Assembly (NCBI RefSeq): GCF_011065895.1
Contig: NZ_JAALCR010000018.1
Coordinates: forward strand, 1 to 64,000
DNA from: Paludisphaera rhizosphaerae
GTDB lineage: Bacteria; Planctomycetota; Planctomycetia; Isosphaerales; Isosphaeraceae
Direction: 5' to 3'
Length of the DNA: 64,000 nt
Part shown: positions 1,765 through 52,115 of the stretch, piece by piece
How positions within the stretch are numbered: the stretch's first letter is position 1
Layout: every line of letters begins with the position of its first letter
Made by a program: the position numbers and the translations under genes
Notes under the pieces: model-generated
Databases searched by the model: none
What the model was told of the DNA's origin: nothing
Seen by the model: the letters and a program-made list of their open reading frames with translations, nothing else

Positions 1765-1983
1765 GCGTACCCCTCTGTCAGGGATTCGTAAACGCTGACT
1801 GGGAACGACCCCTCCTTACGATCCATCATACCTCGCTTCGCCTACCCATCCCAGGCCGCCAACCGGCCCTGACTCGTGCAAGCCGGACGATCTGGTAGAA
1901 TGGAGGGGTGCGGCCGCGTGGCTGCCGGGGTCGGTGCGAGGTCGGCCCGGCGGGCGGGGTCTCCGGGGTGGGAAACGACGGCC

Positions 1984-10572: not shown

Positions 10573-10660
10573 TTTCTGCGCAAACCGCCTGGAATTGTCT
10601 CAGCAGACGCGACGCGGGCCCACGATGAGGGTGCGTTGAACCGAAGCCGGCCAAAAAACC

Positions 10661-10932
10661 AGGTCCCCTCTCCCGGCGGGCTGACGACCCGACATTTATT
10701 CAGGAGTAGCGAACCAAACGGCCTTCCCCCCTCGCGGGGGAAGGTGGCCCGAAGGGCCGGATGAGGGGGGATCGGCTCCGCGTTCACGGCAAGGCTCGAA
10801 TGCGCATGCGACGGTGGTCATCCCCCTCATCTGACCGCTTCGCGGTCTGTCTTCCCCCTCCAGGGGGGAAGACGTCTTGATCGCCGCCGCCGTAAATGCG
10901 TCGGGTCGTCAGCTTGGCGGGAGAGGGGACTT
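10661..10932. repeat. Composite MITE-like element with 33-bp inverted ends
   Basis: The 33 bases at 10661-10693 and 10900-10932 are near-perfect inverted copies. Read as top strand for the right copy and bottom strand for the left, both begin GTCGGGTCGTCAGC and end GGGAGAGGGGAC plus two bases, with only about four differing positions. The ~155-bp palindrome family described separately lies between them. There is no coding capacity. The core GGGAGAGGGGAC also appears alone near 24919. Confidence 0.6.
10720..10874 (+). repeat. Palindromic repeat family 1, copy 1
   Basis: The left part runs GGCCTTCCCCCCTCGCGGGG, then a short GTGGCCCGAAGGGCCGGATGA hairpin block. A variable ~50-base centre follows, then CCCCCTCATCTGACCGCTTC, and it closes with CTTCCCCCTCCAGGGGGGAA followed by GACGTC. 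The ends pair with each other and each half also forms its own hairpin. Other copies are at 14971, 35121 and, inverted, 40420. Confidence 0.8.
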
Positions 10933-11150: not shown

Positions 11151-11417
11151 TCAACGCGCCTTGAGCATGGCGCGCATCTGGAGGCGGCTGGCGGGCAGCG
11201 AGGCTTCTTTCAACAGACGGGTGAGCTTGGACTCGACCACGCAGGCGGGACGCTGGCCTGACCGTTCGTCGACCACCAGGGCCTCTTCACGAGGCGCGGG
11301 GGACCGTCGCGCGACCAGGGGCTCGCGGCGGGGTGCGACGAGGTCCACGGAAGGAGCAGCGGCGGTGACGTCGGTGGCGATCAACACGGGACTCAAGTAA
11401 CCCTCTCTTGAAAACAT
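11151..11417 (-). CDS. Small protein of unknown function (88 aa)
   Basis: Not recognised. It is kept because a perfect AGGAGG lies 10 bases upstream of the ATG at 11417, which chance frames here lack. The sequence starts MFSREGYLSPVLIATD, has an Arg/Pro-rich middle (residues about 27-45), and ends with a basic, probably helical tail (K-L-T-R-L-L-K-E-A-S-L then R-L-Q-M-R-A-M-L-K-A-R). There is no signal peptide or membrane segment. It is isolated between the repeat-rich gap and a 476-base upstream region. It may be a small regulatory or nucleic-acid-binding protein. Confidence 0.55.
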   Translation of the reverse strand: MFSREGYLSPVLIATDVTAAAPSVDLVAPRREPLVARRSPAPREEALVVDERSGQRPACVVESKLTRLLKEASLPASRLQMRAMLKAR

Positions 11418-11893
11418 GGAAAGGAAACCTCCTGCAAGACCTGGCGGATAACCGCCTCCTACAGAGCGTATTGCAAACGGCGCGCCGAAGGAACGACAGG
11501 CCGGCCGGAGAAGGCGATGTGCGAGACGTCGGGGACTTCAGCGGGGTTGGGCCGCCGGATCCATCGGCGTCTCCTCGGGCCTGGGTGCGATCGGGATCGG
11601 ACGCCCCCCATCGCTCCACAAGTTTAGTACGCGAATTCCGGCCCAAGCGTGGGAGACTTCCGCGCGGTTTTCCAAATACTAGGAAACGCCTTGGTAGGAT
11701 GGAGGCACCGACTCAGCTTTCTTAAGAAAATCGGCCGATCTCCCGGCGGTACGACTCGCACCGCGGGCGGGGCGGGCCGTACCATACCCAGGGTGACGAA
11801 CGCGGCGAGCCGGCCGGACTCGCCCCCGATCGGCCTCCCGCGCCGACGAGGCGGTTTTCACAGATTCAGGCGAGCCCAAGGGCGGTCAAACCG
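11418..11893. other. Intergenic region, no gene seen
   Basis: This 476-base divergent gap separates the leftward 88-aa gene and the rightward ABC exporter, so it should hold both promoters. It has a slightly AT-richer stretch around 11670-11735. No repeat or convincing ORF was found. Confidence 0.4.
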
Positions 11894-13810
11894 ATGGCGC
11901 GAGAGAGCGTGGCGAAGCGGCTGCGAGAGGTCGGGCGTGAGCTGGGCCGAATCCGCCGCCGGGGAAGGCAGGTCTGGCGGCTGGTCCCCTGGCCGCACAA
12001 GGTCTCGCTGGGGATGGCCCTGATCGTCATGGGCCTGGCCAGCGCCGGCGGGACGGCCGCCGCCGTCTTCCTGGGCAAGCTGGTCAGCGCCATCTCGCCG
12101 GCCGAGGACGGAACTCGTCCCCCGGCCGAGGTCGTCGCCCGCGCCGCGGCGTTCTACCTGACGCTGATCGGCCTGGGCTATCTCGTCCGCGAGACGATGA
12201 ACGTCCTCCGCCGCTATCTCGTCGAACGGGCCTGCACCCGGATCGACAAGGACATGTGCGTGCGGCTGGTCGCCCACCTGATGAAGGTGGACCTGGCCTC
12301 GATCGCCCAGGATCAGGTCGGCGCCCTGTACGGACGCATCACCCGCAGCGCGGAAGGCTTCGTCCGATTCCTGCGCATCAGCTTTCTCGATTTCGTCCCC
12401 GCGCTGTTCACGGGGGGCTTCGCGGTCTTCTACGTTCTGACGCAGCAGCCGTGGGTCGCTCTGGCGATGCTCGGGGTCGTTCCGATTTCCCTGGGCCTAA
12501 CGGTCGCCCAGATCGTCACCCAGAAGGGAGTGCGGCTCGACCTTCTCCGAACCCGTGAGCGCATGGACGGCACGGTCGTCGAGCAGCTTTCGGGCATCGA
12601 CTACGTCCGGGCCTCCAATACGCACCGGCGGGAGATCGCCCGGGTGGCGAAGGCGGCCGAGCGGCGACGGTCGAAGGAGTTGAAGCACCATTTCCAGATG
12701 TCGTTGTTCGGCTGCGGCAAGGCGCTCAACGAGGGCTTCTTCCACCTGGTCGTCCTGGCGCTGGCGGTCTACCTGTACATCCACGGCCGGATCAACGTCG
12801 GCGACATCTTCACCTTCTCCGTCCTGTACCTGAACGTGATGGCTCCCTTGAACGAGGTCCACCGGTTCATCGACGAGGCCCACGAGAGCAGCCTGAGGGT
12901 AGGCGACCTCATCGGCCTGTTGCGCGAGCCGATCGACCCCTCGTTCAAGCCGGTCGATCCCAGGACGCCCGTCCTGGCGCTGGGGGAGCCGGTCTTCGTG
13001 GCCGACGACGTCAGCGTCCAGTATCCCAGGACCATCGAGGGGGGCCGGCGGGCGCTCGACGGGCTCTCGCTGGTGATCCGCCACGGCGAGACGATCGGCA
13101 TGGCCGGTCGTTCCGGCTGCGGCAAGACGACCTGGCTGCGAGTCCTGATGCGTCTGGTGCACCCCACGTCCGGCCGGGTCTGGTTCGGCGGGGTTCCGCT
13201 GGAGAGCGTCACACGCGAGTCGATCGGCGACATGGTCGGCTACGTCGGCCAGAACCCGTTCGTCTTCACGGGGACGATCGCCGAGAACATCGCCTACGGC
13301 TGCAAGGACCCGACTCCGGAGGGGATCCAGGCCGCCGCCGAGGCCGCCTGCATTCACGACGAGATCATGATGATGCCCGGCGGCTACAAGGCCAGGGTCG
13401 CCGAGCGCGGGCAGAACCTCTCGGGAGGTCAACGCCAGCGGATCGCCCTCGCCCGGATCTTCCTCAAGAACCCGCCGATCCTGATCCTCGACGAGGGGAC
13501 GTCCGCCCTGGACAACATCAGCGAGCGCCGCGTCCAGCAGGCCGTCGACGCCGCCCGGGCGGACCGCACGGTGATCCTCGTCGCCCACCGTTTGACGACG
13601 CTGCTGGACACCGACCGGATCCTCGTCTTCGAGGACGGCCGGGTCGTTGAGAACGGCAAGTACGGCGAACTCGTCCGGGCCGACGGCGCCTTCGCCGACC
13701 TCGTCCGATCCGCCGAGATGGGCCGACTCGACGCCCCTCCGGAGCCCGAGATCCCCGACCCCGCCGCGCCGGCCGACGTCGTGGAGGCCATCGAGCGCGG
13801 CGAGGCGTGA
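11894..13810 (+). CDS. ABC exporter, fused permease and ATPase (half-transporter)
   Basis: A 638-residue MsbA/lipid-exporter-type half-transporter expected to work as a homodimer in the inner membrane. A basic N-terminus leads into six transmembrane helices (about residues 33-325). The nucleotide-binding domain has Walker A A-G-R-S-G-C-G-K-T-T near 404, the signature L-S-G-G-Q-R-Q-R near 509, and Walker B I-L-I-L-D-E-G-T near 529 (the second acidic residue is the catalytic Glu), then an H-loop V-A-H-R near 560. The C-terminal tail is acidic and Pro/Ala-rich. The substrate cannot be told from sequence; lipids, glycolipids or peptides are typical. It stands alone, converging on the PDZ gene with a 10-base gap. 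Confidence 0.9.
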   Translation: MARESVAKRLREVGRELGRIRRRGRQVWRLVPWPHKVSLGMALIVMGLASAGGTAAAVFLGKLVSAISPAEDGTRPPAEVVARAAAFYLTLIGLGYLVRETMNVLRRYLVERACTRIDKDMCVRLVAHLMKVDLASIAQDQVGALYGRITRSAEGFVRFLRISFLDFVPALFTGGFAVFYVLTQQPWVALAMLGVVPISLGLTVAQIVTQKGVRLDLLRTRERMDGTVVEQLSGIDYVRASNTHRREIARVAKAAERRRSKELKHHFQMSLFGCGKALNEGFFHLVVLALAVYLYIHGRINVGDIFTFSVLYLNVMAPLNEVHRFIDEAHESSLRVGDLIGLLREPIDPSFKPVDPRTPVLALGEPVFVADDVSVQYPRTIEGGRRALDGLSLVIRHGETIGMAGRSGCGKTTWLRVLMRLVHPTSGRVWFGGVPLESVTRESIGDMVGYVGQNPFVFTGTIAENIAYGCKDPTPEGIQAAAEAACIHDEIMMMPGGYKARVAERGQNLSGGQRQRIALARIFLKNPPILILDEGTSALDNISERRVQQAVDAARADRTVILVAHRLTTLLDTDRILVFEDGRVVENGKYGELVRADGAFADLVRSAEMGRLDAPPEPEIPDPAAPADVVEAIERGEA

Positions 13811-36686: not shown

Positions 36687-37892
36687 TCAGGAATTTCTGG
36701 GGGCGAAACTGAAGTTCAGGCCGGCGATCGACTGTCCCTGGAAATTGACGTCGTAGTTGATTTCGTTGAGTTGGCGGCCGTCGGTCGGCTGCACAGGGCG
36801 AGCGTTGGGCAAAAAGTCGTTGCCGTCGGCGAGGGTCTCGTACTCTTGAAGCTGCGCGAAGTCGAGAGTGATCGGGGTGGCGAAGACCATCCAGTTCAAC
36901 GGCTGCGCCAGCGGCGGAGTGGTCAGCGACCCCTGGAAGTACCAGCCCGTCATGTCGGTCGGCAGGAGCTTGGAGAAGTCGAGGACGCCCACGTTGCTCC
37001 CCGGCGTCGAGGTGCCGGCCGGCGTCTCCGACAGATGCTCCGTCGCCGCCGCGAGGATCGGGTCGAGCGCGTCGTTGTGCGCCCCCAATTGCAGGAAAAC
37101 CGCCAGGACGGTCGCACCGCCTTCGGCGCTCGTGTTCACGAAGTGGACTTCCATGTTGTACGTGTGGCCGTCGACCTGATTCTCGGACGGGTCGTGGAAA
37201 TGGAATTCGGTCAGGGAGAACGTCCGGCCGGCCAGCGTGATCGTATCCGGGTTGGCAGCCGTCGCGCCGGGGAAATTGAGCTGGAGCTGCGAACCGGTGT
37301 TCGTCATCGACGTCGGCGCGGCGGCGGCGTACGAGACGTTCAGAACCCGGCTCAGATCGGTGGTCGGCCCCACAATGTTGATCGGTGACTGGAACGGCAG
37401 CGTCCCCGCCGAGGCGACCGTCCACCAGCTCGTCGGGCCGACTGGCCCCTTCGACGGGTCGCTGTTCCCCGTCCTGTAGTTCCACGACGATCTATCGAAG
37501 CCCGGCTCCATCGAGCCCGTCGGGACGGCGTTGGTGAAGGTCGGGGCGACCTGCACCCCGTTGCGCGGGGCCACAGCGCGGACGACGTAAGCGCCCTTGT
37601 CGTGGACACGGAACGAATAGCGTCCGCGGGGTCCGGTAAGGACTGTCCACTCGACCTGGCCGTTTGCGTCGACCAGTTGGATCGGCACGCGCCCGAGGGG
37701 CCGCCCCGTCGCCGCGTTGGTCACCTGGCCTGAAAGCGTGCTCGTCGCGGCCCCCCCGTGCAACGCAGCCGCCCAGGACGTCACGGTCGAGGCGTTCAGC
37801 ACGACGCGGCGGTCCAGCGCCTCGACGGTCGGCTCGTAGGCGCCCCGACACTTCCGGCCTGGTTCGCAGGCCCCATACGTTCTCGTCTTCAT
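36687..37892 (-). CDS. Secreted alpha-carbonic anhydrase with an N-terminal beta-sandwich domain
   Basis: 401 residues. The N-terminus carries V-E-A-L-D-R-R-V-V-L-N-A, the planctomycete surface-protein motif. Residues about 52-120 are a carboxypeptidase-regulatory/Cna-B-like domain (L-S-G-Q-V-T-N-A-A-T-G-R-P-L). The rest is alpha-carbonic anhydrase: W-N-Y at 137-139, Q-S-P-I-N-I at 168, F-H-F-H at 230-233 and M-E-V-H at 247-250 supplying the three zinc histidines (231, 233, 250), Glu237, and the G-S-L-T-T-P-P-L active-site loop. It hydrates CO2, here probably on the cell surface. The ATG at 37892 is preferred to the extended frame at 38048. Confidence 0.9.
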   Translation of the reverse strand: MKTRTYGACEPGRKCRGAYEPTVEALDRRVVLNASTVTSWAAALHGGAATSTLSGQVTNAATGRPLGRVPIQLVDANGQVEWTVLTGPRGRYSFRVHDKGAYVVRAVAPRNGVQVAPTFTNAVPTGSMEPGFDRSSWNYRTGNSDPSKGPVGPTSWWTVASAGTLPFQSPINIVGPTTDLSRVLNVSYAAAAPTSMTNTGSQLQLNFPGATAANPDTITLAGRTFSLTEFHFHDPSENQVDGHTYNMEVHFVNTSAEGGATVLAVFLQLGAHNDALDPILAAATEHLSETPAGTSTPGSNVGVLDFSKLLPTDMTGWYFQGSLTTPPLAQPLNWMVFATPITLDFAQLQEYETLADGNDFLPNARPVQPTDGRQLNEINYDVNFQGQSIAGLNFSFAPRNS

Positions 37893-38314
37893 GGATGACG
37901 ACTCCAGAAGCCGCCGGAACAGCCGGTCGGCCGATCGGTCGGTTGCAATCCCCCGGAACGACGCCGTCCCGGGATAGCCTGAAACGAGGTGCGCATCGGC
38001 AAGACCGAACGCCCCCCATGGAGGCTGAAGCGTGGGAAACCGAGTCAAAATCTGCTTGAGGACACCCCTGAATCTCCCAAACTAAGACTTAATAGACGCT
38101 CGCGCTCGATTCCACTCACTTCCCGAGAGGGAAAGCTGTTTTTCTTGAGAATATGGTCCGCTAATGTTCGACATCGCCCTCGACTTCGACCCCATGGCCG
38201 AATGGCACCCTCTTTGATCGAGACCCGGCGGCGGCTACCCTGGTTAGCATGGCGCCGATAGGGTCGGTCGGGGCCGACACCATTCCGGGTCCATCGCGAA
38301 CGGAGGGCGGGTCG
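37893..38314. other. Divergent promoter region
   Basis: This 422-base gap lies between the carbonic anhydrase and FAD-oxidoreductase starts. It is AT-richer at about 38080-38170. A weak hairpin TTCCC-gaga-GGGAA at 38120-38133 precedes a run of five T (38139-38143), possibly the end of a small transcript. No gene was seen. Confidence 0.35.
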
Positions 38315-41033: not shown

Positions 41034-43997
41034 TCAGAGACGGACGTGATCGGAGGCGTGGACGCCGCCTCCCCGCCGCCGCCACCAGTCGAGCAGACTC
41101 TCAAACCTCAGGTGGTTGCGACTCCGGCCCGTGAGCCCGTCTTCCGAAAGGTCCTCCATATTACGACGAATTCGGGCGAATTCGACGGGGTCCATGTACC
41201 AGTTCAAGGTCTCCACGTTGGGCGCGTTCGAGTCGCGCGGGGTGGTGTCGCAGGTGAAGACGACGGATCGGAAAAACTCGGGGTCGTTCTCGCGAAGCCG
41301 GCGGAACGTGTCGTGCAGGCCGTTGAGCTGAGCGTCGTTGCGGAAGTACATCGAGGAATCCCGCACATGAGCGAGCCCCTCCACCGGGAGCACCAACGAC
41401 TGAAGCCCGCCGAAGATCAGCCCGACGGACCTCGGGACGGCGTCCAGGACCGCTTCGATCCGGCCCCACATGGAAGGCGTCGCCCCTGGTTCCGAGGGAG
41501 GGGCGGCCAGAACCTCGCGGTCGAGCTTCTTGAGTCGGGCCTCGTTGGGGAACGCGCGGACCTGGATGAACAGAACGCCCGCGGCGTTCTCGGCGAGCCA
41601 GCGGGCGTGGCTGGCGACCCACGCGCCTGCGAGGTTCACGCCGTAGTTGTCGTAGTAGCCGGCGTCGACGACGTGCCTCGGCGGGAACGTCGGCAGGACC
41701 ACGGACGAGGTGACGTACGGGAACGTCGCGCTCATCCGCACCGCCGCCGCCAACCGGAGCCGCTTCCGATCGGTGGGGAACATCCGGAAGAACTCGACGG
41801 CTGAGACCGACGCCAGTTCGGGATACTCCAGATCGTAGTCGTCGGGCGTTCGGGCGTTGTCGCGCCGGTAGTCGTCCGCGAGACGACCGGCGTCCTCGAC
41901 CAGCAACGAGCGGGCGGGCGTGTACGTCAGGTCGGCCAGGGGCAGGTTGCCGATCAACAGCCGGCGGCCGTCCTCGGTCGTGATCGGAGAAAAGACGATC
42001 GATGGGACCAGCCCCTGCTCCTCGGCGTCCCGAAGCTGCTCAAAGGTCGTGTCCAGCCCCCGGTCGACGCGCCCCCAGGCTTCCTCCAGAGCGTTGCCGC
42101 GGTTATACAGAGCCGTGGGGATCAGCGAGTTGGGCAGGAAGTCGCGAAAGGCGATCTGCCAGGCGATCGGCGAGAGATAATCCGGCGGTCCTTGCAGCGC
42201 TCCTCGCGTCCCGACCGGACCGCCCGGCAGCCCGTGGCCGTCGCACTGGGAGACGACGAACCTCGCCGCGCCCAGCATCCCCCCGGACGCCCCGGTGATC
42301 AACCGGACGTGGTGCGAGAAATCATCGAGGAAGGCGTCAAGATACCCCAGAACCGTCTCGGCCCAAACTCCCGCTCGAAGGGCGCCGCCGCTGACGGCGA
42401 CAACCACCAAAATGGGCTTCGGCGAGGGACGCGAAGCGGTCGCGAACGAGCGCCGCCAGTTCTCAAGCCACCGCTCGCGATGCGATGCGTCCCGCAAGGC
42501 CGCCGCGGGCGCGGAGGCTCCGTCGGCGAAGTCCAGGGTGCGGCGTTCGAAGCCCTGAAGGTCCACAATCCCCGTGTAACTCGCCGGCATCCCGCCCTGA
42601 ACGGAGAGCTGTCGCGCGAACTGCTCCAGAGTGCCCGGATAACGGTCGGATAGATCGTCCAGCCGGACCTCGTAGTCGAGCGAACCAACCAGCGACAGCA
42701 GCATCGCGGTGGCCGCCGCGATCCCGACCCGCCAGCGCAGCGGGCGAGTCCCAAGCCAGGTTACGGTGGTCGCCAGCAGCCCCAGCGCCGTGCAAAGCGA
42801 GAACGCGGCCGGGAACCGCGACCGCAACACGTCCGGGCCGGCGACCCAGTACGGAATCAGAAAGACGGCCGAAAGGACAAGGAACAGGTTCCTCATGTTC
42901 GCGTGGGCGTCGAGCCGATCGCGGTCGAGTCTCCAGACCGTCCACCAGGCCGGGTCCTCGCGACGCGCCCAGCGCTTCAGGGCGTGCCAGAGTTCATGGA
43001 GCCGGGTCGCCGGTCGAATCGTCGCCAGGGCCCCCAGTGTCGCCGCGCCGGCCGCAATCCCGATCAGCCAGGGCTCATCGACGACCGACTCCGGGACCAA
43101 GGGCCTCGCCACGGGAATCAACGCCGGGATCGCCAACGCCAACGTCGCCGGGACGCCGAAGACCGCCATGAACCACGAGAGACGGCCCGCCGCGTTCGAC
43201 CTTCCCAGCATTCCAGCCGGTCCGCCGTCCGGCGTTCCCCGCATCGACCGGGGGATCGGCAGCCCGCTCGCCCTCGCCGCGGTCGCGAACCGGGGCCAGA
43301 TCTGATGCTCGGGCTCGTGGCGATGGATCTCGTGATCGCGGGTGAACAACAGATAGACCATCCAGCCGGTGAACAGCGTCACGCCGAACGCGGCCCATCC
43401 TCGGGTCGTCGCGTCGAAGTGCCAGAAGAGCCCCGGCATCCCGACTCCCGCGAGACCGCCGTAGACAATCCAGTACACCAGGGCGATCTCCGCCGCGATC
43501 AGCAACCCGGACAGGCTCGACAGGCAGAGAGCCCCCAGCACGGGCGCCAGCCTCCACATCCGGCCGACCGCCAGGACGATCACCGCAACCGCCGCCGTCT
43601 GCTGCCAGTGGTCGACCATCAAGGCGACTTCGTCCTCGCCCCGGCCGAGGACCCGGCTCCCCAACCGATCCTGAGCGAGAAACAGGCAGATCGGCGCCGT
43701 CGCCAGCAAGGCCCCCATCGCGAGCCAGGGGAGTCGTCCCCAGGGCGTCAGCCTCCTCGTCGTCCGAAGCGCCCGTCGGTGCAGCGCGACGACCTGTCGC
43801 CGTCGCGTTCCTCGCGCGGGAACCTCCCTGAGCAGCAGGCAGACCGGCGCCGTCGCTAGCAGCGTGATCATCGCGACCAGCGGGATGCGACCCCACGGCC
43901 GAGGCCGCAAAACCACCGCCCGAGCCTGCTCATACAGCGCGACGGCCCAGAGCCATTTCGACCCGCGACCGACCTCGCGAGGCGTGGAGCCGATCAT
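41034..43997 (-). CDS. Membrane patatin-like phospholipase
   Basis: 987 residues. The N-terminal ~480 residues hold about eight to ten membrane helices, beginning with a duplicated unit (two copies of P-W-G-R-[IL]-P then L-L-A-T-A-P-[VI]-C-L). The C-terminal half is patatin-like: S-G-G-A-L-R-A-G-V-W near 537 (oxyanion loop), G-A-S-G-G-M-L-G near 569 (nucleophile Ser in GxSxG), and V-D-A-G-Y-Y-D-N-Y-G near 778 (catalytic Asp of the dyad). It would hydrolyse membrane lipids. GGGAGGTGG before ATG 43997 fixes the start. It lies 68 bases downstream of the isoamylase stop. Confidence 0.8.
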   Translation of the reverse strand: MIGSTPREVGRGSKWLWAVALYEQARAVVLRPRPWGRIPLVAMITLLATAPVCLLLREVPARGTRRRQVVALHRRALRTTRRLTPWGRLPWLAMGALLATAPICLFLAQDRLGSRVLGRGEDEVALMVDHWQQTAAVAVIVLAVGRMWRLAPVLGALCLSSLSGLLIAAEIALVYWIVYGGLAGVGMPGLFWHFDATTRGWAAFGVTLFTGWMVYLLFTRDHEIHRHEPEHQIWPRFATAARASGLPIPRSMRGTPDGGPAGMLGRSNAAGRLSWFMAVFGVPATLALAIPALIPVARPLVPESVVDEPWLIGIAAGAATLGALATIRPATRLHELWHALKRWARREDPAWWTVWRLDRDRLDAHANMRNLFLVLSAVFLIPYWVAGPDVLRSRFPAAFSLCTALGLLATTVTWLGTRPLRWRVGIAAATAMLLSLVGSLDYEVRLDDLSDRYPGTLEQFARQLSVQGGMPASYTGIVDLQGFERRTLDFADGASAPAAALRDASHRERWLENWRRSFATASRPSPKPILVVVAVSGGALRAGVWAETVLGYLDAFLDDFSHHVRLITGASGGMLGAARFVVSQCDGHGLPGGPVGTRGALQGPPDYLSPIAWQIAFRDFLPNSLIPTALYNRGNALEEAWGRVDRGLDTTFEQLRDAEEQGLVPSIVFSPITTEDGRRLLIGNLPLADLTYTPARSLLVEDAGRLADDYRRDNARTPDDYDLEYPELASVSAVEFFRMFPTDRKRLRLAAAVRMSATFPYVTSSVVLPTFPPRHVVDAGYYDNYGVNLAGAWVASHARWLAENAAGVLFIQVRAFPNEARLKKLDREVLAAPPSEPGATPSMWGRIEAVLDAVPRSVGLIFGGLQSLVLPVEGLAHVRDSSMYFRNDAQLNGLHDTFRRLRENDPEFFRSVVFTCDTTPRDSNAPNVETLNWYMDPVEFARIRRNMEDLSEDGLTGRSRNHLRFESLLDWWRRRGGGVHASDHVRL

Positions 43998-44065
43998 GAC
44001 GCCACCTCCCGAACACGTTGCGATGGCGAGACTCTTATGTGAGACGACACGCAAGGCGCGTCGGT

Positions 44066-46429
44066 TCAGGGTTTCTCCACAAAGACCGCCACCGATCGCG
44101 ACGTCGTCTTGTAAGTCGACGCGTCGACCCGCAGCGGCGGGTTCGCGATATTGTCATGGTTTTCGAGCGCGGCCGAGGTGTCGACGACGAGGTGCCAACG
44201 ATTGCCAGGCAGGTTGGCGGGGAGCGTCGCCGTGATGTCGGCCGAGAACGCGTTATAGGCGACGAGGATCGACGGCGACGCATCAGCGGCCTCCGTCCCA
44301 TCCAGGCGAAAGGCGATAAAGTGGTTCTGGGTGTTGTCCAGATAGGCGCCGTCGGCCTCCTGACCGTCGTCGCGAATCCAGGTGACGTCCTTAAGGCCGT
44401 TGGCGTTGTGGTCCCGACCGTCGAAGAACTCCCCTCGCCGCAGCGCCGCGTGGTCGCGACGGAACTGGAACATGGCTTTCGCGTAGGCGAGGTGATGCGG
44501 GAACCTCGTCTGAAGGTCGTAGTCGAGATAGAACCGGTCGTTGTCGAGGTTGAACGGGTTGTTGTTGCCGAGCTGCGAGCGGTACATCTCGTCCCCACCG
44601 ACGATCATCGGGACGCCGGCCGAAACAAGCAAGAGGGCCAGGCCGGTACGCGCCGCCTGCCGCTGAAGCGCCGGGTCGCCTCCCTGGTCCCACGAGATGT
44701 TGCGGTCGTCGTCCGCCCCGCCCGCCGACGGACCAAGCGGGAAAGGCTGGTTGTTTTGCTTGTGCAGGAAGCTGTAGAGATCGCGGAGCGTGAAGCCGTC
44801 GTGGGCGACGATGTAATTGACGCCGTTGTAGGGTTTCCGACCGCTGGCCTGGAAGATGTCGGACGAGCCGGCGAACAGGGTGATGAGCTGGGCCGGAGAA
44901 ACTTCATTGCCGCCGATCCCGAGCTTGTTCTGCTTCTGCCGGATCGGGTAGCGGAATCGGTCGTCCCACTCCGTCCAGCCGAACGGAAACTGGCCGAGTT
45001 GGAAGGTGCCGAACCCTTTGGCGCCGTAAGGCTCGGCGATCAGATCGACGCCTGAACCATCGAGACCGCGCGCGGGCAGGTCGGCGACGGCGCGTTTGAG
45101 GAAGCCGTCGGTCGAAGAGTTGTCGAAGCTGAAGTCGCCGTGCGTCTGGCTGTTCCCGAGCACAGCGGCCAGATCGAACCGGAAGCCGTCGACCCCCATC
45201 TGCTCGGTCCAGTATTTCAGGGAATCGAGGACGAGGTCGCGAGTGACCGGGGCGGCGGTGTTGACGTTCGGCCCCACGCCGTTGTTGTTCGCGTAGTAGC
45301 CGTTGCGAAGCCATCGGTTGGGCCGGCCGTCGTCCTGATACGGGGCGTTGTCATCGCGAAGCTCGTAGTACGTCGCGTTGTCGAGGCCCCGCCAACTGAG
45401 AATGGAAGCGATGGAGCCGGTCTCCTTGTCGACGTCCCCCTCGCCGGTGTGGTTGTAGACGACGTCGAGGATGACCTTGATCCCCGCGTCGTGGAAGGCG
45501 CGGACCATCTGCTTGAACTCGCGGGTCGGTCCTCCCCAGGACTTGTTGGCCGCGTAGCGACGGTCTGGCGAGAAGAAGCTGTCGGGGTCGTATCCCCAGT
45601 AATTGTCCCCAACGGCGGAGCCGGGGGTGAGGTCGTTCTGGTCGTTCTGGAGTTCGTAGATCGGGAGGAACTCGACGGCCGTGACGCCGAGATCCTTGAG
45701 CGCGGCCGCCTTGCGTGCCGCGCCCGCGTAAGTGCCGCGCTCGGCGGCCGGAACGCCGGCGTCCTGGGCCGTGAGGCCGCGAAGGTGGACCTCATAGATC
45801 AGGTCGTCCTTGAGCGTACGCTGGGGATGGACGCCCACGTCGACGGCGACGTCGGCGAGGACGACGCCCTTGGGGGCTATGATGCCGGTGTCGTCGGCGC
45901 GATGGGCTGAGCCCGAGAGGTACAGGTCGCCGTTGGGGTGCAACTGGTTGCGGGCGTCGTGGCTCACCTCGCGGGCGTAGGGGTCGAGCAGCAGCTTGTT
46001 GGGATTGAAGCGGTTCCCCTTGTCGTCGACGTCCGACACGAACCCGTCGGCGGTCCCCTTCTTCCAACTCGCGACGTACGGCCAGTTCGGCCCCCAGGCG
46101 CGGTAGCCGTAGAAGACGGCCCCGGAGAGGCCGGCGCTCTGGAGGTCGGCGGCGGAGACGGTCTTCGACCAGACGTGGGACGTCGGGTCGTTATCCAGAG
46201 GGAGGGCGAGTTTCTCCGCTTCCCCCTCGGGGTTCGCGTAGATCCAGACTTCGATGCGAGTCGCCGGAGCGGAATAGACCCGGAAGGTCACGCCGCCCGT
46301 GGCGTCGAGCGAGGGCCCGAGCGGAGCAGCGAGCGCGGCGTTGGCGATACCCACAAGCGAGGTGACGACGGCCAGAGCCGTCAAAAGGCGACGGGCGAAG
46401 GACCGAGGGAGTCGTCTTGAGAAGGACAC
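44066..46429 (-). CDS. Secreted isoamylase-type glycogen debranching enzyme (GH13)
   Basis: 787 residues starting with GTG (GGAG about 7 bases upstream). A signal peptide with an Arg-rich front spans about 1-35 (A-N-A-A-L-A-A-P). An N-terminal CBM48-like sandwich (V-T-F-R-V-Y-S-A-P-A-T-R-I-E) precedes the GH13 barrel with D-V-V-Y-N-H-T, G-F-R-F-D-L-A (nucleophile Asp419), L-I-A-E-P-Y (acid Glu466) and V-A-H-D-G-F-T (Asp544). The length and secretion match bacterial extracellular isoamylase, which cuts alpha-1,6 branches of glycogen and amylopectin, rather than cytosolic GlgX. It follows the GH31 and small beta-rich genes in the same leftward operon. Confidence 0.9.
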   Translation of the reverse strand: MSFSRRLPRSFARRLLTALAVVTSLVGIANAALAAPLGPSLDATGGVTFRVYSAPATRIEVWIYANPEGEAEKLALPLDNDPTSHVWSKTVSAADLQSAGLSGAVFYGYRAWGPNWPYVASWKKGTADGFVSDVDDKGNRFNPNKLLLDPYAREVSHDARNQLHPNGDLYLSGSAHRADDTGIIAPKGVVLADVAVDVGVHPQRTLKDDLIYEVHLRGLTAQDAGVPAAERGTYAGAARKAAALKDLGVTAVEFLPIYELQNDQNDLTPGSAVGDNYWGYDPDSFFSPDRRYAANKSWGGPTREFKQMVRAFHDAGIKVILDVVYNHTGEGDVDKETGSIASILSWRGLDNATYYELRDDNAPYQDDGRPNRWLRNGYYANNNGVGPNVNTAAPVTRDLVLDSLKYWTEQMGVDGFRFDLAAVLGNSQTHGDFSFDNSSTDGFLKRAVADLPARGLDGSGVDLIAEPYGAKGFGTFQLGQFPFGWTEWDDRFRYPIRQKQNKLGIGGNEVSPAQLITLFAGSSDIFQASGRKPYNGVNYIVAHDGFTLRDLYSFLHKQNNQPFPLGPSAGGADDDRNISWDQGGDPALQRQAARTGLALLLVSAGVPMIVGGDEMYRSQLGNNNPFNLDNDRFYLDYDLQTRFPHHLAYAKAMFQFRRDHAALRRGEFFDGRDHNANGLKDVTWIRDDGQEADGAYLDNTQNHFIAFRLDGTEAADASPSILVAYNAFSADITATLPANLPGNRWHLVVDTSAALENHDNIANPPLRVDASTYKTTSRSVAVFVEKP

Positions 46430-46486: not shown

Positions 46487-47248
46487 TCAGTAGCCGGCTT
46501 TCTTGCGGACGTCGGGAAGCGCGGCGACGAAGTAGCGTCCCTGGTTGTCGTCTCGAAACGGACGACCCTCGGCGTAGTAGATGAGGTCGTAAACGACGAC
46601 GGCCTGGTTGGGCACCTGGACTCCCTGAGTCGTCCAGATCACATGCCCGTGCTCGTCGAGCTTCTCCGTGCGGACGAGGTCGACGGCCGTCTCGGCGAGG
46701 GGCGTCGGCGAGTTCAAAATGCGATAACGCGCGATCAGGCGATCGACGACGGGAGCGGCGGCGACGGTGGCGAGGAACTCGTTGAGAGGCCGAGAGGGCT
46801 GCACCACGATCGTCGAGTCGATGACGTGGATCTCGATCTGGTAGAACCGGAAGCGGTAGTTCTTGCCCCAGTTGCTGTCGTAGTAGATCCGGCCGCCGGC
46901 GTCCTGGTAGGTGAAATAAACTTCCACCCAGTCGGCGTCGGCCGGAATGTCGGCGTCTCCCAGGAGCTTGGGAGCGCGAATGACGGCCATCTGAGGAATA
47001 TGGTCGGGCTCGCCGACCCAACTGACGAGCCGGGTGGCCTGGAAGGGGGCGTTCTCCTTGTAGCGGAGGTGGGCCTCGACCGGCCGCGCAGGGTCGCCGA
47101 ATTTGTAGTCGTCGTGGGGAGGGACGACGCGGAACGGGTCGAAGCGGATCAGGGCCGTCGAACCGGCCCGGAAGGCGCCCCGGATTTCCTCTCGGAAGTT
47201 CCGGGTGAAGATCATCTGGGCTCTCGAATCGGTTTCAACGTGTTGCAC
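46487..47248 (-). CDS. Beta-rich protein of unknown function, possibly carbohydrate-binding (253 aa)
   Basis: I do not recognise a named family with certainty. There is no signal peptide. The start is GTG with GGGAG about 9 bases upstream. Y-Y-D-S-N-W-G-K-N-Y at 122-131 resembles the D-x-N-x-G-x-N-Y loop seen in CBM25/CBM53-type starch-binding modules, and the surrounding strands (V-E-V-Y-F-T-Y-Q-D then F-R-F-Y-Q-I-E-I-H-V) fit a beta-sandwich. It lies between the GH31 (60-base gap) and isoamylase (57-base gap) genes, which supports a role in alpha-glucan handling. This is inference. Confidence 0.6.
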   Translation of the reverse strand: MQHVETDSRAQMIFTRNFREEIRGAFRAGSTALIRFDPFRVVPPHDDYKFGDPARPVEAHLRYKENAPFQATRLVSWVGEPDHIPQMAVIRAPKLLGDADIPADADWVEVYFTYQDAGGRIYYDSNWGKNYRFRFYQIEIHVIDSTIVVQPSRPLNEFLATVAAAPVVDRLIARYRILNSPTPLAETAVDLVRTEKLDEHGHVIWTTQGVQVPNQAVVVYDLIYYAEGRPFRDDNQGRYFVAALPDVRKKAGY

Positions 47249-47308: not shown

Positions 47309-50134
47309 TCACAGGAAGAGGGCCGTCACGGTGACGTCGGGCAGAGAGTCGAACACCTTGATGAACGTGACCTCGATGCTCGGATTCCAGTAGTAAGCGT
47401 CGGCCGCCGAGCCGGTGAGGTTCTCGGGACTGCCGACGTCGGGCAGGGCGGCGCCGCCGACCGACACCGTCGACGGACGGCGAGTCCCCGGCAGGGCGAT
47501 GAAGTAAAAGGGCTCGCGAGGCGTGAACCCGTCCTTGAGCCGGTGGACGCGAATCTCCTGGCCGCCGGCGACGCTCTTGTGGCTGACCTCGGTGATGCGG
47601 AAGACCTCGTTCTCCGCGGCGTCGGTGGTAATCCCGTCGTCCAGGTAGAGGCGGTAGGAGCTGTCCGGCCCGGGGTAGATGTTCAGGGTCAGCGGGTTCT
47701 GCGGCAACTGACCCACGTACTGCTCAAGCTCGCGGGTCGGCAGGATCGCCCCGGCGCGGACGTAGATCGGCACCAGGTCGAGGGGCGCGAAGTAGTCGAA
47801 GGCGGGTATGCCGCCGGTCACCGGAGCCTCGAGCTTGGCTCGATTGTCCTTGAAGGAGTACCAGTCGCTCCTGGCCGGGAGGTAGACCTGCCGGATCGGC
47901 GGGGACGGGGGCGAAGCGGTCTCGTGCTGCTCGATGATCGGGGCGATGAGCAGGTCTCGCCCGACGAAGAACTCGCTGTCGGCCCAGCGCGGGTCGTAGA
48001 CGTTCGGGTCGTGAGGGTCGTTGACGAACAGAGCCCTGCTGACGGGTACGCCCGTCTGGGTCCACTCGAACATGGCGTCATAGAAGAGCTGAAGGAGCCG
48101 ATACCGCAGCTCGACGTACTTGCGACAGTTCGTCGGCACGGGCTCCTGGTAGCGGAAGGCCTCCTGGAACTCCTTCACGTAACCGTTGTAGTGGTTGCGG
48201 AACCAGGGAAGGAAGGCCCCGGCGTGCATCCAGCGCGTGAAAAGCTCGTAGTTGGTGATCTGACCGACGACCTTCGAGCCTTCGATGCGGCCCTGGCCGA
48301 CCGATCCGGAACCCGTGGCGAAGCCGCCGATGTCCGCGCCGTTGATCGGGATGCCGGAGAGGCCCAGGTTGAGCACCTGGGGGACGTTGACACGGAGATA
48401 ATCCCAGCTCGACGGGGAGTCGCCCGTCCAGAGGCCGGCGTAGCGCTGCATGCCGGCGTAACCGCCCCGGGCGATGATGAAGTTGCGCGTCTTATCGGCG
48501 ACCTCGCTGCGGAGGGTCTGAATTCCGTCCCAGGTCCCGATGAGGAGCGTGAGGGCGTAAGCGTTGTGGATGACGGCGTTGGGCACGGGGGGGCCGGCGT
48601 CGGGGTTCTGCATCAGCGACAGCGGGAAGGTCTTCGGTTGAGTCGCTCCCACGACGTTCAGGGCCGGACATGTCATGTCTTGCCAGATCATGTCCATTTT
48701 GAGGTCCTGGATCAGGTGCTTGTACTGCCGCCCCCAGGCCTTGCGGACCTTCGCACGCGAGTAGTCGCTGTAGCGCCCCTGGGCGCCCAGCGCCATCGAC
48801 CCGTTCCTGAACACCTTGGGGGGATAGGCGGTGAAGTAGGTGTTGCTCCCGAAATTGTCGCCGTAGCTGACGTCGCCGAGAAAGAGGGGATCGGGGTTTG
48901 AGGGGGCCGGGTCCTCGCCCGGGAAGAACTGGCTCGCGAGCAGACCCCCGGCGGTGTTCATCGCCTGGAGTTGATCGTAGGCCGCCATGTCGCCCTTCTC
49001 GTCGAACATATTGTCGGTCAGCAGCGGGGTGATGTTGGTGCTGCACTTGAAACCGTGGTCGTGCAGGCCGGAGAGGTATCGGGCGGCGTTCGGAAACTTG
49101 ATCTCGCTATGGGTGAAGGTGCGATAGTTGTCCTGAAAGTCAACGTCGATATGAAGGCCGTCGAGCGGGATCGCGGCGGCGCGGTAGCCGTTGGCGGCGG
49201 CCGAAAGGGTGGCGGAGTCGAAGTAGCCGTACGCCCCCTGGTGGAAGCCGAAGACGTACTTGGGCGGCATGGGCGACCGGCCGGTGAGCGTCGTGTATTG
49301 CGCGAGGACGCCGCGAACGTCGTCGCCGGCCATGAAGTAGTAGTCCATCTCCCCGTAGAGCGCGCCGAAGTAATACTTGCCGTACATATCGGAGTAGTCG
49401 CTCGCCCCGATGTTGAAATAGGACTGAGCCGGATTGTCGAAGAAGACGCCGTACGCGTACGGGTCGCCCGCGAAGTCGCCGATCGGGCTCGGATTGACTT
49501 CGAGCAGCAGCGGGACCGAGCAATACAGGGGCTCGGAGGGATTCAACGGATTGTTCCCCTCACTCTCGGGGAGCGCGGGCGCGCTGTTGTAGGAGAAGTT
49601 GTCGAAGTTGAAGAACGTCATCGTGAATTCGTTCTTGAACAACTGGGCGCCCGCCTTCGAGCCGAACCCGCAATAGCGCGCGTTGGCGGGGTAGGTCTTG
49701 AAGTTCGCGACGACCTCCTGAAAGGGAATGTAGACGAGGTTGTAGCCCGGCATGTCGGCGCTGATCAACTGGCCGCCGCGGAAGACCTGGATCCCGTACG
49801 GCTTCAGGTTGATTCGGACCTGGATCGAGCCGGTGTCGACGTCGAGATGATCGCCCCCCTTGTTGACGACCAGAGAGAGCGGCACGCCCCCCGTCAGGTC
49901 GCGTTCGACGACCGCGAAGGAGGTCTCCGTGGTGTAGTCGGGAGTGACGACCGGTCGGAAACGGACCCGAAAGCAAGTCGGCCCGAGGAAGGAGACGCGG
50001 AGGCTCATCCCCGGCGTGGACATGTCGAGGTCGATCGCGTCGCCGGTTCGACGCGTGTTGACAATGTCGCCGATCGGCTTCCAGTCGCCGTTGTTCGGCG
50101 TAAAGCTGTGGACGTAGACGTACTGATGGGGCAC
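47309..50134 (-). CDS. GH31 enzyme resembling alpha-1,4-glucan lyase
   Basis: 941 residues from GTG 50134 (AAGGGA upstream); a GTG at 50188 would add 18 residues but lacks a ribosome site. GH31 signatures in order: F-G-F-H-Q-G-A-Y-G-Y; D-G-L-H-I-D-V-D-F-Q-D-N-Y-R-T-F-T; C-S-T-N-I-T-P; I-W-Q-D-M-T-C-P-A-L (nucleophile Asp486); A-R-G-G-Y-A-G; L-W-T-G-D-S (acid Asp572); A-D-I-G-G-F; F-L-P-W-F-R-N-H-Y. GH31 hydrolases usually have N-E after D-M; here it is T-C, as in the D-M-T-V-P-A I remember from algal/fungal alpha-1,4-glucan lyases. Lyases release 1,5-anhydrofructose from starch ends. No signal peptide. Alternative: a divergent alpha-glucosidase. Confidence 0.75.
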   Translation of the reverse strand: MPHQYVYVHSFTPNNGDWKPIGDIVNTRRTGDAIDLDMSTPGMSLRVSFLGPTCFRVRFRPVVTPDYTTETSFAVVERDLTGGVPLSLVVNKGGDHLDVDTGSIQVRINLKPYGIQVFRGGQLISADMPGYNLVYIPFQEVVANFKTYPANARYCGFGSKAGAQLFKNEFTMTFFNFDNFSYNSAPALPESEGNNPLNPSEPLYCSVPLLLEVNPSPIGDFAGDPYAYGVFFDNPAQSYFNIGASDYSDMYGKYYFGALYGEMDYYFMAGDDVRGVLAQYTTLTGRSPMPPKYVFGFHQGAYGYFDSATLSAAANGYRAAAIPLDGLHIDVDFQDNYRTFTHSEIKFPNAARYLSGLHDHGFKCSTNITPLLTDNMFDEKGDMAAYDQLQAMNTAGGLLASQFFPGEDPAPSNPDPLFLGDVSYGDNFGSNTYFTAYPPKVFRNGSMALGAQGRYSDYSRAKVRKAWGRQYKHLIQDLKMDMIWQDMTCPALNVVGATQPKTFPLSLMQNPDAGPPVPNAVIHNAYALTLLIGTWDGIQTLRSEVADKTRNFIIARGGYAGMQRYAGLWTGDSPSSWDYLRVNVPQVLNLGLSGIPINGADIGGFATGSGSVGQGRIEGSKVVGQITNYELFTRWMHAGAFLPWFRNHYNGYVKEFQEAFRYQEPVPTNCRKYVELRYRLLQLFYDAMFEWTQTGVPVSRALFVNDPHDPNVYDPRWADSEFFVGRDLLIAPIIEQHETASPPSPPIRQVYLPARSDWYSFKDNRAKLEAPVTGGIPAFDYFAPLDLVPIYVRAGAILPTRELEQYVGQLPQNPLTLNIYPGPDSSYRLYLDDGITTDAAENEVFRITEVSHKSVAGGQEIRVHRLKDGFTPREPFYFIALPGTRRPSTVSVGGAALPDVGSPENLTGSAADAYYWNPSIEVTFIKVFDSLPDVTVTALFL

Positions 50135-50225
50135 GATTCGGTCCCTTGCTTCTTGAGTGTCGATGCTCGGATAAGTCAACCGGCGCACCGTCGGCGGGAC
50201 GCCGGGACCAGAGTGGGCGACTCGG

Positions 50226-52115
50226 TTACTTCGGCAGGTTCTTCTCGGGGTCGGAGCCTGGGTCGTTGAGGCTCGCGGCCCCCTTCACGCCGCGGACGGC
50301 GGCGGGAACGGCGGTGGACTTCGGAGCATCCTCCGACTGGGCCTTCATCTGGAGCAACCAGGAGAAGTCGGCGTTGCCCGTGCGGCCGGCGTTGGAGTTG
50401 ATGCCGAAGATGGGAACCTTGTTCCCTTCGTTCATGAGCAGCTTCCCCTCGGCGTCGCGTTTGAAGCCGAGGCACATGCCGGCCGAATAGTGGCAGCCGA
50501 CGCAACTCTCCGTGCCGAAGACGAGGGTTGGGTCAGCGACCTGCTTGGGAGGGAGCCGGTCGTCCTGAGCCAGCGGCCCGGCAGCCTGAACGCCGAGTTG
50601 GAAGAAGGTTTCCATCGTCGTGTTCGCGACGTAGACCGGGACCATCTGGCCGGGCGTCTTGAAGACGATGCTCTCCGGGGCCGAGTTGTTCCCCGACGGG
50701 AAGGCTGGGAAATTCGGTCGGACCGGCCACTGGGCGCCGATCAGCTCGTAATACTGGAAGACGCTCCCCAGGCCGGCCAACGCGCGTTGCGACTCGCGGT
50801 TCACCTGCTGAGTGGCGAGCGGAATGGGGATGACGCGAGTCACCTGCACGGGGGTCGTGGTGAGCGACTCGTCCCAGTCGGTCGGCGCGCCCGTCGCGTC
50901 GGGTCGGCTGTTCTTGGGGGCGAGCACGTTCGGGATCTTGGTCGGCAGGTCGGGGTTGTTGAAGATCGGACGGAGCCGCTGCTTCTTTCCTCCGATGTGC
51001 ACGAACGACAGGTCGTTCGTCTGGACGTTGTCGACGTGCTCGAACGTGGCCCAAATCCACTCGGGCGAGGAACGCGTCTTGGTGGCGATGTGCATGCCGA
51101 CCATCCCCATCGGCACCGGGACCGGATCGGGCTGGGGCACGCCGTCCTTGGTCGGGGCCTCGTTGTGGATGATGTACGACCAGCGGACGAGGAACCGGGA
51201 GGGATCGGAGTTCCAGGTCATCTTGGAGGCCAATTGCTTGAAGCCGTCGTTCTTGGAGAAGTCGTAGTCGCGGGCGACGAACGGGCCGTTGGCCTTCTCG
51301 TCGTAGGTCGCGAGTTGCTTCCAGGCGAACTTCACCTCGGTCGTGCCGGCCGTGAAGGTCTCGCCGTCGATCTTGTCGCCGTCGACGGGAAAGGAGACGG
51401 TGCGGTCCGCGGCGAATCGGGCCTGGCCTTCGAGGCTGTAGAGGCCGTTCCGGCGGATGTACTCGTAGGAGGTGCGGTTGACGTAGACCTTGTAGCGGAC
51501 CCAGAGGCCCTGCTGGTCGACGAGCGGACCGGTAAACGCCTGAAGTGACTCGTCGACGATCTGGGTCCGGTTCAGGGCGTGACGGTTGTTGATCTTGGAA
51601 TACATCCAGAGCGTCAAGGGCTCGTAATGGTCGGCCTCGAACGTTCCCGGATAGGCGCCCGACGTCCACGGCTGGGGAGCGGCGCCGTATCGCTGAAAGA
51701 GGGAGTTCGCCTCGGCCAACGTCTGCCAGACGCGCGGCCGCCAGGCCCCCTCGACGGCGTCCTGCTTCAGGCTGATCGCTGGATCCGGCTGCCCGTCGGC
51801 CTTCGTCGGCCAGTTCATCCCCACGAACAACCGCCACGCGAAGCGATCGAAGATTTGCTGAGCTTCGGGGATGTTGGCGGGATCGTGAATGAAGGAAAAG
51901 TCGCCGGTCCCGTCGTTCACGTCGACGGGCAGCTCGGGCTTGAACTCGATCGTTTTCTCAGCCTCTCCCGGCTGCTGGGCGTGAGCCGGTGGAGAAGCGT
52001 CGAGGGCGGCGAGGGACCACCCGAGGGTTAACACGGCGGCGAATCCTCGCCCGGCCGTCCGCAAACTCATCCGTTCCGTCCGCGACCACGCTCGAACTGT
52101 TGTCGCAGTCATCAT
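50226..52115 (-). CDS. Secreted mono-heme cytochrome c-like protein (629 aa)
   Basis: A signal peptide follows a basic front (about 1-46, ending A-H-A-Q-Q). The body is large and not assignable: F-A-W-R-L-F-V-G-M-N-W-P near 92 and repeated beta-rich stretches. One c-type heme site, C-V-G-C-H, lies near residue 537, followed by Y-S-A-G-M-C-L as possible distal ligand region. Similar ~600-residue single-heme proteins occur in environmental proteobacteria without a known role. It is the first gene of the leftward cluster, with 91 bases to the GH31 start. An electron-transfer or scaffold role for sugar oxidation would be speculation. Confidence 0.7.
   Translation of the reverse strand: MMTATTVRAWSRTERMSLRTAGRGFAAVLTLGWSLAALDASPPAHAQQPGEAEKTIEFKPELPVDVNDGTGDFSFIHDPANIPEAQQIFDRFAWRLFVGMNWPTKADGQPDPAISLKQDAVEGAWRPRVWQTLAEANSLFQRYGAAPQPWTSGAYPGTFEADHYEPLTLWMYSKINNRHALNRTQIVDESLQAFTGPLVDQQGLWVRYKVYVNRTSYEYIRRNGLYSLEGQARFAADRTVSFPVDGDKIDGETFTAGTTEVKFAWKQLATYDEKANGPFVARDYDFSKNDGFKQLASKMTWNSDPSRFLVRWSYIIHNEAPTKDGVPQPDPVPVPMGMVGMHIATKTRSSPEWIWATFEHVDNVQTNDLSFVHIGGKKQRLRPIFNNPDLPTKIPNVLAPKNSRPDATGAPTDWDESLTTTPVQVTRVIPIPLATQQVNRESQRALAGLGSVFQYYELIGAQWPVRPNFPAFPSGNNSAPESIVFKTPGQMVPVYVANTTMETFFQLGVQAAGPLAQDDRLPPKQVADPTLVFGTESCVGCHYSAGMCLGFKRDAEGKLLMNEGNKVPIFGINSNAGRTGNADFSWLLQMKAQSEDAPKSTAVPAAVRGVKGAASLNDPGSDPEKNLPK

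Follow-up and report, generated by a model that had tools for sequence, protein, structure and literature searches.

A GH31 gene of Paludisphaera rhizosphaerae resembling alpha-1,4-glucan lyases, its gene neighbourhood and its bacterial relatives

The window analyzed here, a stretch of 64,000 nucleotides from the planctomycete Paludisphaera rhizosphaerae, carries a series of minus-strand genes, the first four of which are separated by short gaps. In the order of transcription they are:

50226-52115, minus strand: CxxCH heme-type protein of 629 aa, predicted to be exported (putative signal peptide), neighbour of the lyase-like genes of group 1 (see below)
47309-50134, minus strand: GH31 alpha-1,4-glucan-lyase-like gene, assigned from the open reading frame list, Pfam, the PDB match and trees
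46487-47248, minus strand: DUF6209 protein with a CBM21-like YDSNxGxNY motif, a conserved neighbour immediately downstream of the lyase-like gene
44066-46429, minus strand: GlgX/isoamylase-type debranching enzyme, its N-terminus judged by eye to be a putative signal peptide
41034-44054, minus strand: membrane protein of 1006 aa with no family found, 11 bases after the GlgX-type gene

The membrane protein is not conserved in other loci and probably lies outside the cassette. GC content is 63-66% in the cassette and 64-72% around it; this slightly low value was considered as a sign of recent transfer and set aside as not telling.

An earlier note, made from the DNA letters, had proposed that positions 47309-50134 encode a bacterial alpha-1,4-glucan lyase, without giving a strand. 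The frame is intact and lies on the minus strand, where it is open from 50188 to 47309 (959 aa). A GTG at 50188 offers an alternative upstream start, from which the residue numbers used here are counted; however, GTG 50134 is the likelier start, since relatives begin approximately 7-9 residues ahead of a conserved F-x-P-N block and AAGGGA lies 7 bases upstream of it. No signal peptide is visible in the N-terminus. The protein belongs to family GH31: Pfam detected an N-terminal mutarotase-like domain, the TIM barrel (PF01055, 1.3e-72), a C-terminal domain and DUF5110, the three domains besides the barrel all being GH31-associated, and both catalytic aspartates are aligned. In NCBIfam, models of alpha-glucosidases and xylosidases matched, but only below threshold. 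The complete GH31 fold described in the earlier note agrees with the full domain set and with an AlphaFold2 model of high quality (pLDDT 89.9, pTM 0.92).

Among PDB sequences, phmmer gave the highest score to the red-algal alpha-1,4-glucan lyase of Gracilariopsis lemaneiformis (isozyme 1, GH31, EC 4.2.2.13, 2x2h; hereafter GlAGL), at 1e-70 and 242 bits, followed by MGAM at 238 bits (a score from two domains) and the dextranase FjDex31A (6jr6) at 206 bits. A Foldseek search with the model also placed 2x2h on top (E 3e-70, TM 0.86; runner-up TM 0.77), and VIA-align superposed more residues on it than on any other listed structure (876 at 2.1 A), at a Z score of 38.8 among listed rows of 42 to 36 that include hydrolases. 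Because these Z scores tie, fold comparison was dropped as a means of separating lyases from hydrolases. Apart from the window gene, the genome contains one other GH31 gene, whose best PDB matches are a cycloalternan-forming enzyme and YicI.

The residues on which the lyase assignment turns were located by alignment as follows:

49034-49036, minus strand: N385, the counterpart of GlAGL N459; MGAM and most of the WNDMNE-type paralogues tested have Ile here
48677-48679, minus strand: nucleophile D504 (WQDMT), equivalent to GlAGL D553
48419-48421, minus strand: general acid/base D590 (WTGDS), an Asp aligned in all GH31 rows

All aligned catalytic residues of the window protein match GlAGL, and its nucleophile block is W-Q-D-M-T rather than the W-x-D-M-N-E of hydrolases, which is the D-M-T context that had first suggested a lyase. 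The blocks quoted at that time (WQDMTCPA, DVDFQDNYRTFT, CSTNITP and LPWFRNHY) are all present and are aligned with WQDMTVPA, DVDMQDNLRVFT, CQTNITC and LPWFRNHY of the algal enzyme. In GH31 lyases, N459 assists the nucleophile D553, whereas glycosidases have Ile at this site (PMC12441222); the window protein retains the Asn as N385 and also matches GlAGL at T458/T461, Q416 and G650, the lyase-type columns around its active site including Q352, T384, N385, T387, Q503, T506 and G575. The catalytic Asp pair and the GH31 fold are common to FjDex31A and to alpha-glucosidases such as MGAM, but in these DM is followed by Gly-Glu or Asn-Glu, and the Asn is replaced by Ile or Ser. Domain architecture and tree side unite the window protein with GlAGL, although the window protein is shorter, is only approximately 25% identical to it, and belongs to a separate group of bacterial proteins that has accessory genes of its own.

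Relatives were sought in 84,980 species genomes, using an alignment of the window protein, its nearest relative (L004) and GlAGL as the query, together with the patterns D[MF][IV]WQDM and [TA]MT[FN][FY]N[FY]D. The scan yielded 49 loci encoding relatives; since the patterns contain WQDM, its conservation among them is partly built in and more distant relatives were missed, whereas the Asn, Gln352, Thr506 and Gly575 positions lie outside the patterns. Considering these loci and the 1e-70 match to 2x2h, the lyase likeness is far beyond chance. No fewer than seven phyla contain relatives (Planctomycetota, Pseudomonadota, Myxococcota, Cyanobacteriota, Acidobacteriota, Verrucomicrobiota and Bacteroidota), in addition to which there is a single SAR324 metagenome-assembled genome (MAG); many of the records are MAGs, in which contigs may be misassigned. 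Named isolates among the hosts include Pyxidicoccus fallax, Azospirillum halopraeferens, Nostoc sp., Dyadobacter, Lewinella and Reichenbachiella. Within the window's own family, the gene or a fragment of it was found in 3 of 45 genomes (L004 at 69% and L005 at 67%), and none of five other genomes of the genus that were searched has it; two queries against viral contigs returned no relative. The planctomycete host had been part of the original proposal and is supported, the nearest relative in the same GTDB family being a Planctomycetaceae bacterium. Possession of the lyase-type gene is not confined to a single planctomycete, however, since the gene occurs here and there in many phyla and in few genomes of the window's own family.

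The relatives fall into two groups. Group 1 comprises the window protein and relatives at about 38-67% identity. Group 2 (L048, L050-L054 and L061), its sister, has the same lyase-type residues and is mainly found in alphaproteobacteria, with members in Pseudohoeflea, Aestuariivita, a Rhizobium anhuiense plasmid (L061) and others. Its similarity to the algal enzyme is much greater than that of group 1: one member (L053) matches 2x2h at 697 bits over nearly the whole length, no other PDB chain reaching 1e-40. The Asn is found in every row of both groups that spans the site, except that L004 has Asp and L028 has Val. These natural variants, one of them among the nearest relatives of the window protein, indicate that the Asn is not absolute; nor is it diagnostic of a lyase by itself, as hydrolase-side rows have Ile, Met, Ser, Val or Trp here but two of them (L082 and L083) carry Asn. 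Over the whole alignment, 19 columns are common to group 1 and GlAGL/group 2 and absent from the ten hydrolases first used, as against 12 columns joining group 1 to hydrolases against group 2 and 3 joining group 2 to hydrolases against group 1. A Verrucomicrobia MAG (L019) has two tandem, diverged lyase-like genes (4874-7885 and 7920-10847) that belong to different parts of group 1.

GH31 trees were built from 61 rows and, more carefully, from 32 and 44 rows, the last including 11 GH31 paralogues added from host genomes. They are unrooted and contain up to 21 other GH31 proteins, with GlAGL as the sole characterized lyase. A branch with 100/100 support in the 32- and 44-row trees (SH-aLRT 100 in the 61-row tree) separates groups 1 and 2 plus GlAGL from all other GH31 proteins, FjDex31A and MGAM lying on the opposite side from the window protein. 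GlAGL itself nests within bacterial group 2. AU tests rejected the union of group 1 with alpha-glucosidases (p 6e-5) or with the dextranase/xylosidase set (p 1.4e-4), as well as that of group 2 with alpha-glucosidases (p 1.4e-6). Placement inside a hydrolase clade, named in the earlier note as what would speak against a lyase, was thus not observed: the window protein lacks the W-x-D-M-N-E block, lies outside the hydrolase side and resists being moved there (p of 1.4e-4 or less), and it is the WNDMNE-type paralogues of several host genomes that fall among the hydrolases (44-row tree). Given that the hydrolases are diverse, the GH31 root is likely to lie among them, in which case the lyase side is a clade.

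The gene neighbourhood of group 1 is conserved as well, by counts that include related loci but span several phyla. Of the group 1 loci, 39 extend far enough upstream to be scored for the CxxCH gene, and 31 of these have it (28 within 400 bp upstream); 40 extend far enough downstream to be scored for the DUF6209 gene, which 25 of them carry. A GlgX-like gene forms part of the window cassette and of L011 (in the order CxxCH, GlgX, lyase, DUF6209), and in L022 one lies approximately 6.6 kb from the lyase-like gene, cut by the end of the locus. All 15 DUF6209 proteins analyzed match PF19714, two also weakly match the starch-binding family CBM21 (best 1.7e-4), and most have a [YW]DS-x-x-G-x-N motif. 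Group 2 differs in this respect: CxxCH and DUF6209 neighbours were seen in none of its six flank-scanned loci, several of which adjoin a small protein of another family, here called C6, instead.

In the CxxCH proteins, C538-x-x-C541-H542 is invariant, as are many Trp, Gly and Pro positions, and their N-termini appear by eye to be signal-peptide-like (lipoprotein-signal-like in Bacteroidota). No Pfam family was found in 28 members, the PDB contained no sequence relative (one chance match at 0.0018), and Foldseek gave no match to an AlphaFold model with a pLDDT of only 67.7; for these reasons, we claim no fold for this protein. Distant plasmid relatives lie one gene away from a tyrosinase gene in Paracoccus, beside a sorbitol dehydrogenase and a GMC oxidoreductase in Azospirillum, and beside a ferritin-like gene in Bradyrhizobium, and a relative in the window's own family adjoins a tyrosinase-like open reading frame (by eye). 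At L033, a LodA-type lysine-oxidase-like protein (11171-13306) directly follows the lyase-like gene, and an FAD-type open reading frame comes next. In view of such neighbours, a role in electron transfer is at most a reasonable guess.

A more specific hint about the product comes from a Marinilabiliaceae MAG (L049), in which a lyase-like protein 38% identical to that of the window is directly followed by a homologue of aldos-2-ulose dehydratase (AUDH; PF22301 2.3e-61, PDB 4a7k 1.5e-81). Aldos-2-ulose dehydratase also dehydrates 1,5-anhydrofructose, and of all the evidence gathered here this neighbour hints most specifically that a group 1-like protein makes that compound. The arrangement was seen in this locus only: the window has no such gene, its genome gave weak matches, none as strong as in L049, and other genomes outside L049 gave weak matches of 38-67 bits, which were left out of account. 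The homologue (11465-13620) corresponds to the propeller part only and is followed by a small C6 protein. C6 proteins also follow the lyase gene in L050, L051 and L052 of group 2 (twice in L052); they have H-x(2,3)-F-x-E-x-H-T-Q as a conserved motif but no known relative. The idea that they supply the AUDH cupin domain was discarded, no PDB sequence match having been found. Four group 2 loci (L050, L052, L053 and L054) share an SDR, a DUF993 protein and a xylose-isomerase-like TIM-barrel protein, except that in L052 the locus ends and no SDR was observed; this set is a candidate route for 1,5-anhydrofructose use.

Taking together the GH31 fold, the placement within the family, the conserved residues and the conserved neighbourhood, we consider it probable that the window gene encodes an exo-acting alpha-1,4-glucan lyase of glycogen, starch or maltodextrins. 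By analogy with GlAGL, such an enzyme would take terminal glucose units off these alpha-1,4-glucans from the non-reducing end. D590 would protonate the leaving group and D504 would form a covalent glucosyl ester; D504, helped by N385, would then take the C2 proton in place of an attack by water, and the resulting enol would tautomerize to keto 1,5-anhydro-D-fructose. The GlgX-type enzyme could remove the alpha-1,6 branches that stop an exo-enzyme, the CBM21-like DUF6209 protein may hold the glucan, and the exported CxxCH protein may handle electrons in an oxidation that comes later or runs in parallel. It is possible, though we would put it below an even chance, that bacteria of no fewer than seven phyla possess an anhydrofructose cassette not described before, made up of the cytosolic lyase, the DUF6209 protein and the exported heme protein (in planctomycetes also the GlgX-type enzyme), which would convert glycogen or starch to 1,5-anhydrofructose and pass it to an undescribed oxidation.

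It is improbable, in our judgement, that the protein is a hydrolase or transglucosidase that shares ancestry with GlAGL but releases or transfers glucose. The nucleophile, the acid/base, an Arg and a His are common to all GH31 rows, L004 manages without the Asn, and 1,5-anhydrofructose is a minor by-product of GH31 hydrolases (PMC12441222), which makes the line between the two activities thin. Nevertheless, the positions and the clade shared with GlAGL, as well as the AUDH neighbour in L049, argue against this idea, and several host genomes already carry ordinary GH31 paralogues. Somewhat less improbable, but still unlikely, is a lyase of the same mechanism that acts on another alpha-glucoside or serves another biological use, in which case group 1 would have a substrate of its own. 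The difference from GlAGL at approximately 75% of residues, the 12 columns that group 1 shares with hydrolases against group 2, and the unlike accessory genes of the two groups would fit such a specialization; by contrast, the GlgX-type genes in or near three loci, the weak CBM21 matches of DUF6209 members and the positions around the -1 site common to the window protein and GlAGL speak against it.

The use of the product, rather than its formation, is at issue in another reading, which is compatible with lyase activity: 1,5-anhydrofructose or a derivative could be an antimicrobial or a signal, and the cassette would then be non-catabolic. We regard this as rather unlikely. The products of the fungal pathway, ascopyrone and microthecin, are antibacterial (PMC12441222), the genes are patchily spread across phyla, and an exported heme-type protein is encoded next door; on the other hand, no exporter or self-protection gene is conserved, and a GlgX-type enzyme with a putative signal peptide suits glucan breakdown.

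The sources named for alpha-1,4-glucan lyases are fungi and red algae (PMC12441222, PMC6629992). Our text searches of literature readable without subscription turned up no report of an alpha-1,4-glucan lyase from bacteria; GH31 subfamily work may already list bacterial candidates. The chemistry appears to be that of the known enzymes, but the proteins form a bacterial group apart, with accessory genes of their own. If the lyase reading is true, scattered bacteria of many phyla would have a third route of glycogen and starch breakdown beside hydrolysis and phosphorolysis, and would be a candidate source for environmental 1,5-anhydrofructose and 1,5-anhydroglucitol. The trees set the red-algal enzyme among bacterial proteins, and the cassette offers genes without known function that are testable in culturable strains.

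Two further genes of the window deserve mention. A plus-strand gene at 1876-10572 encodes a GH94 protein of 2898 aa that resembles cyclic beta-1,2-glucan synthases; besides its GH94 catalytic domain, it has a glucoamylase-like domain and two supersandwich stretches. On the minus strand, the gene at 36687-38048 encodes a eukaryotic-type (alpha) carbonic anhydrase domain (5e-31) preceded by a carboxypeptidase-regulatory-like domain.
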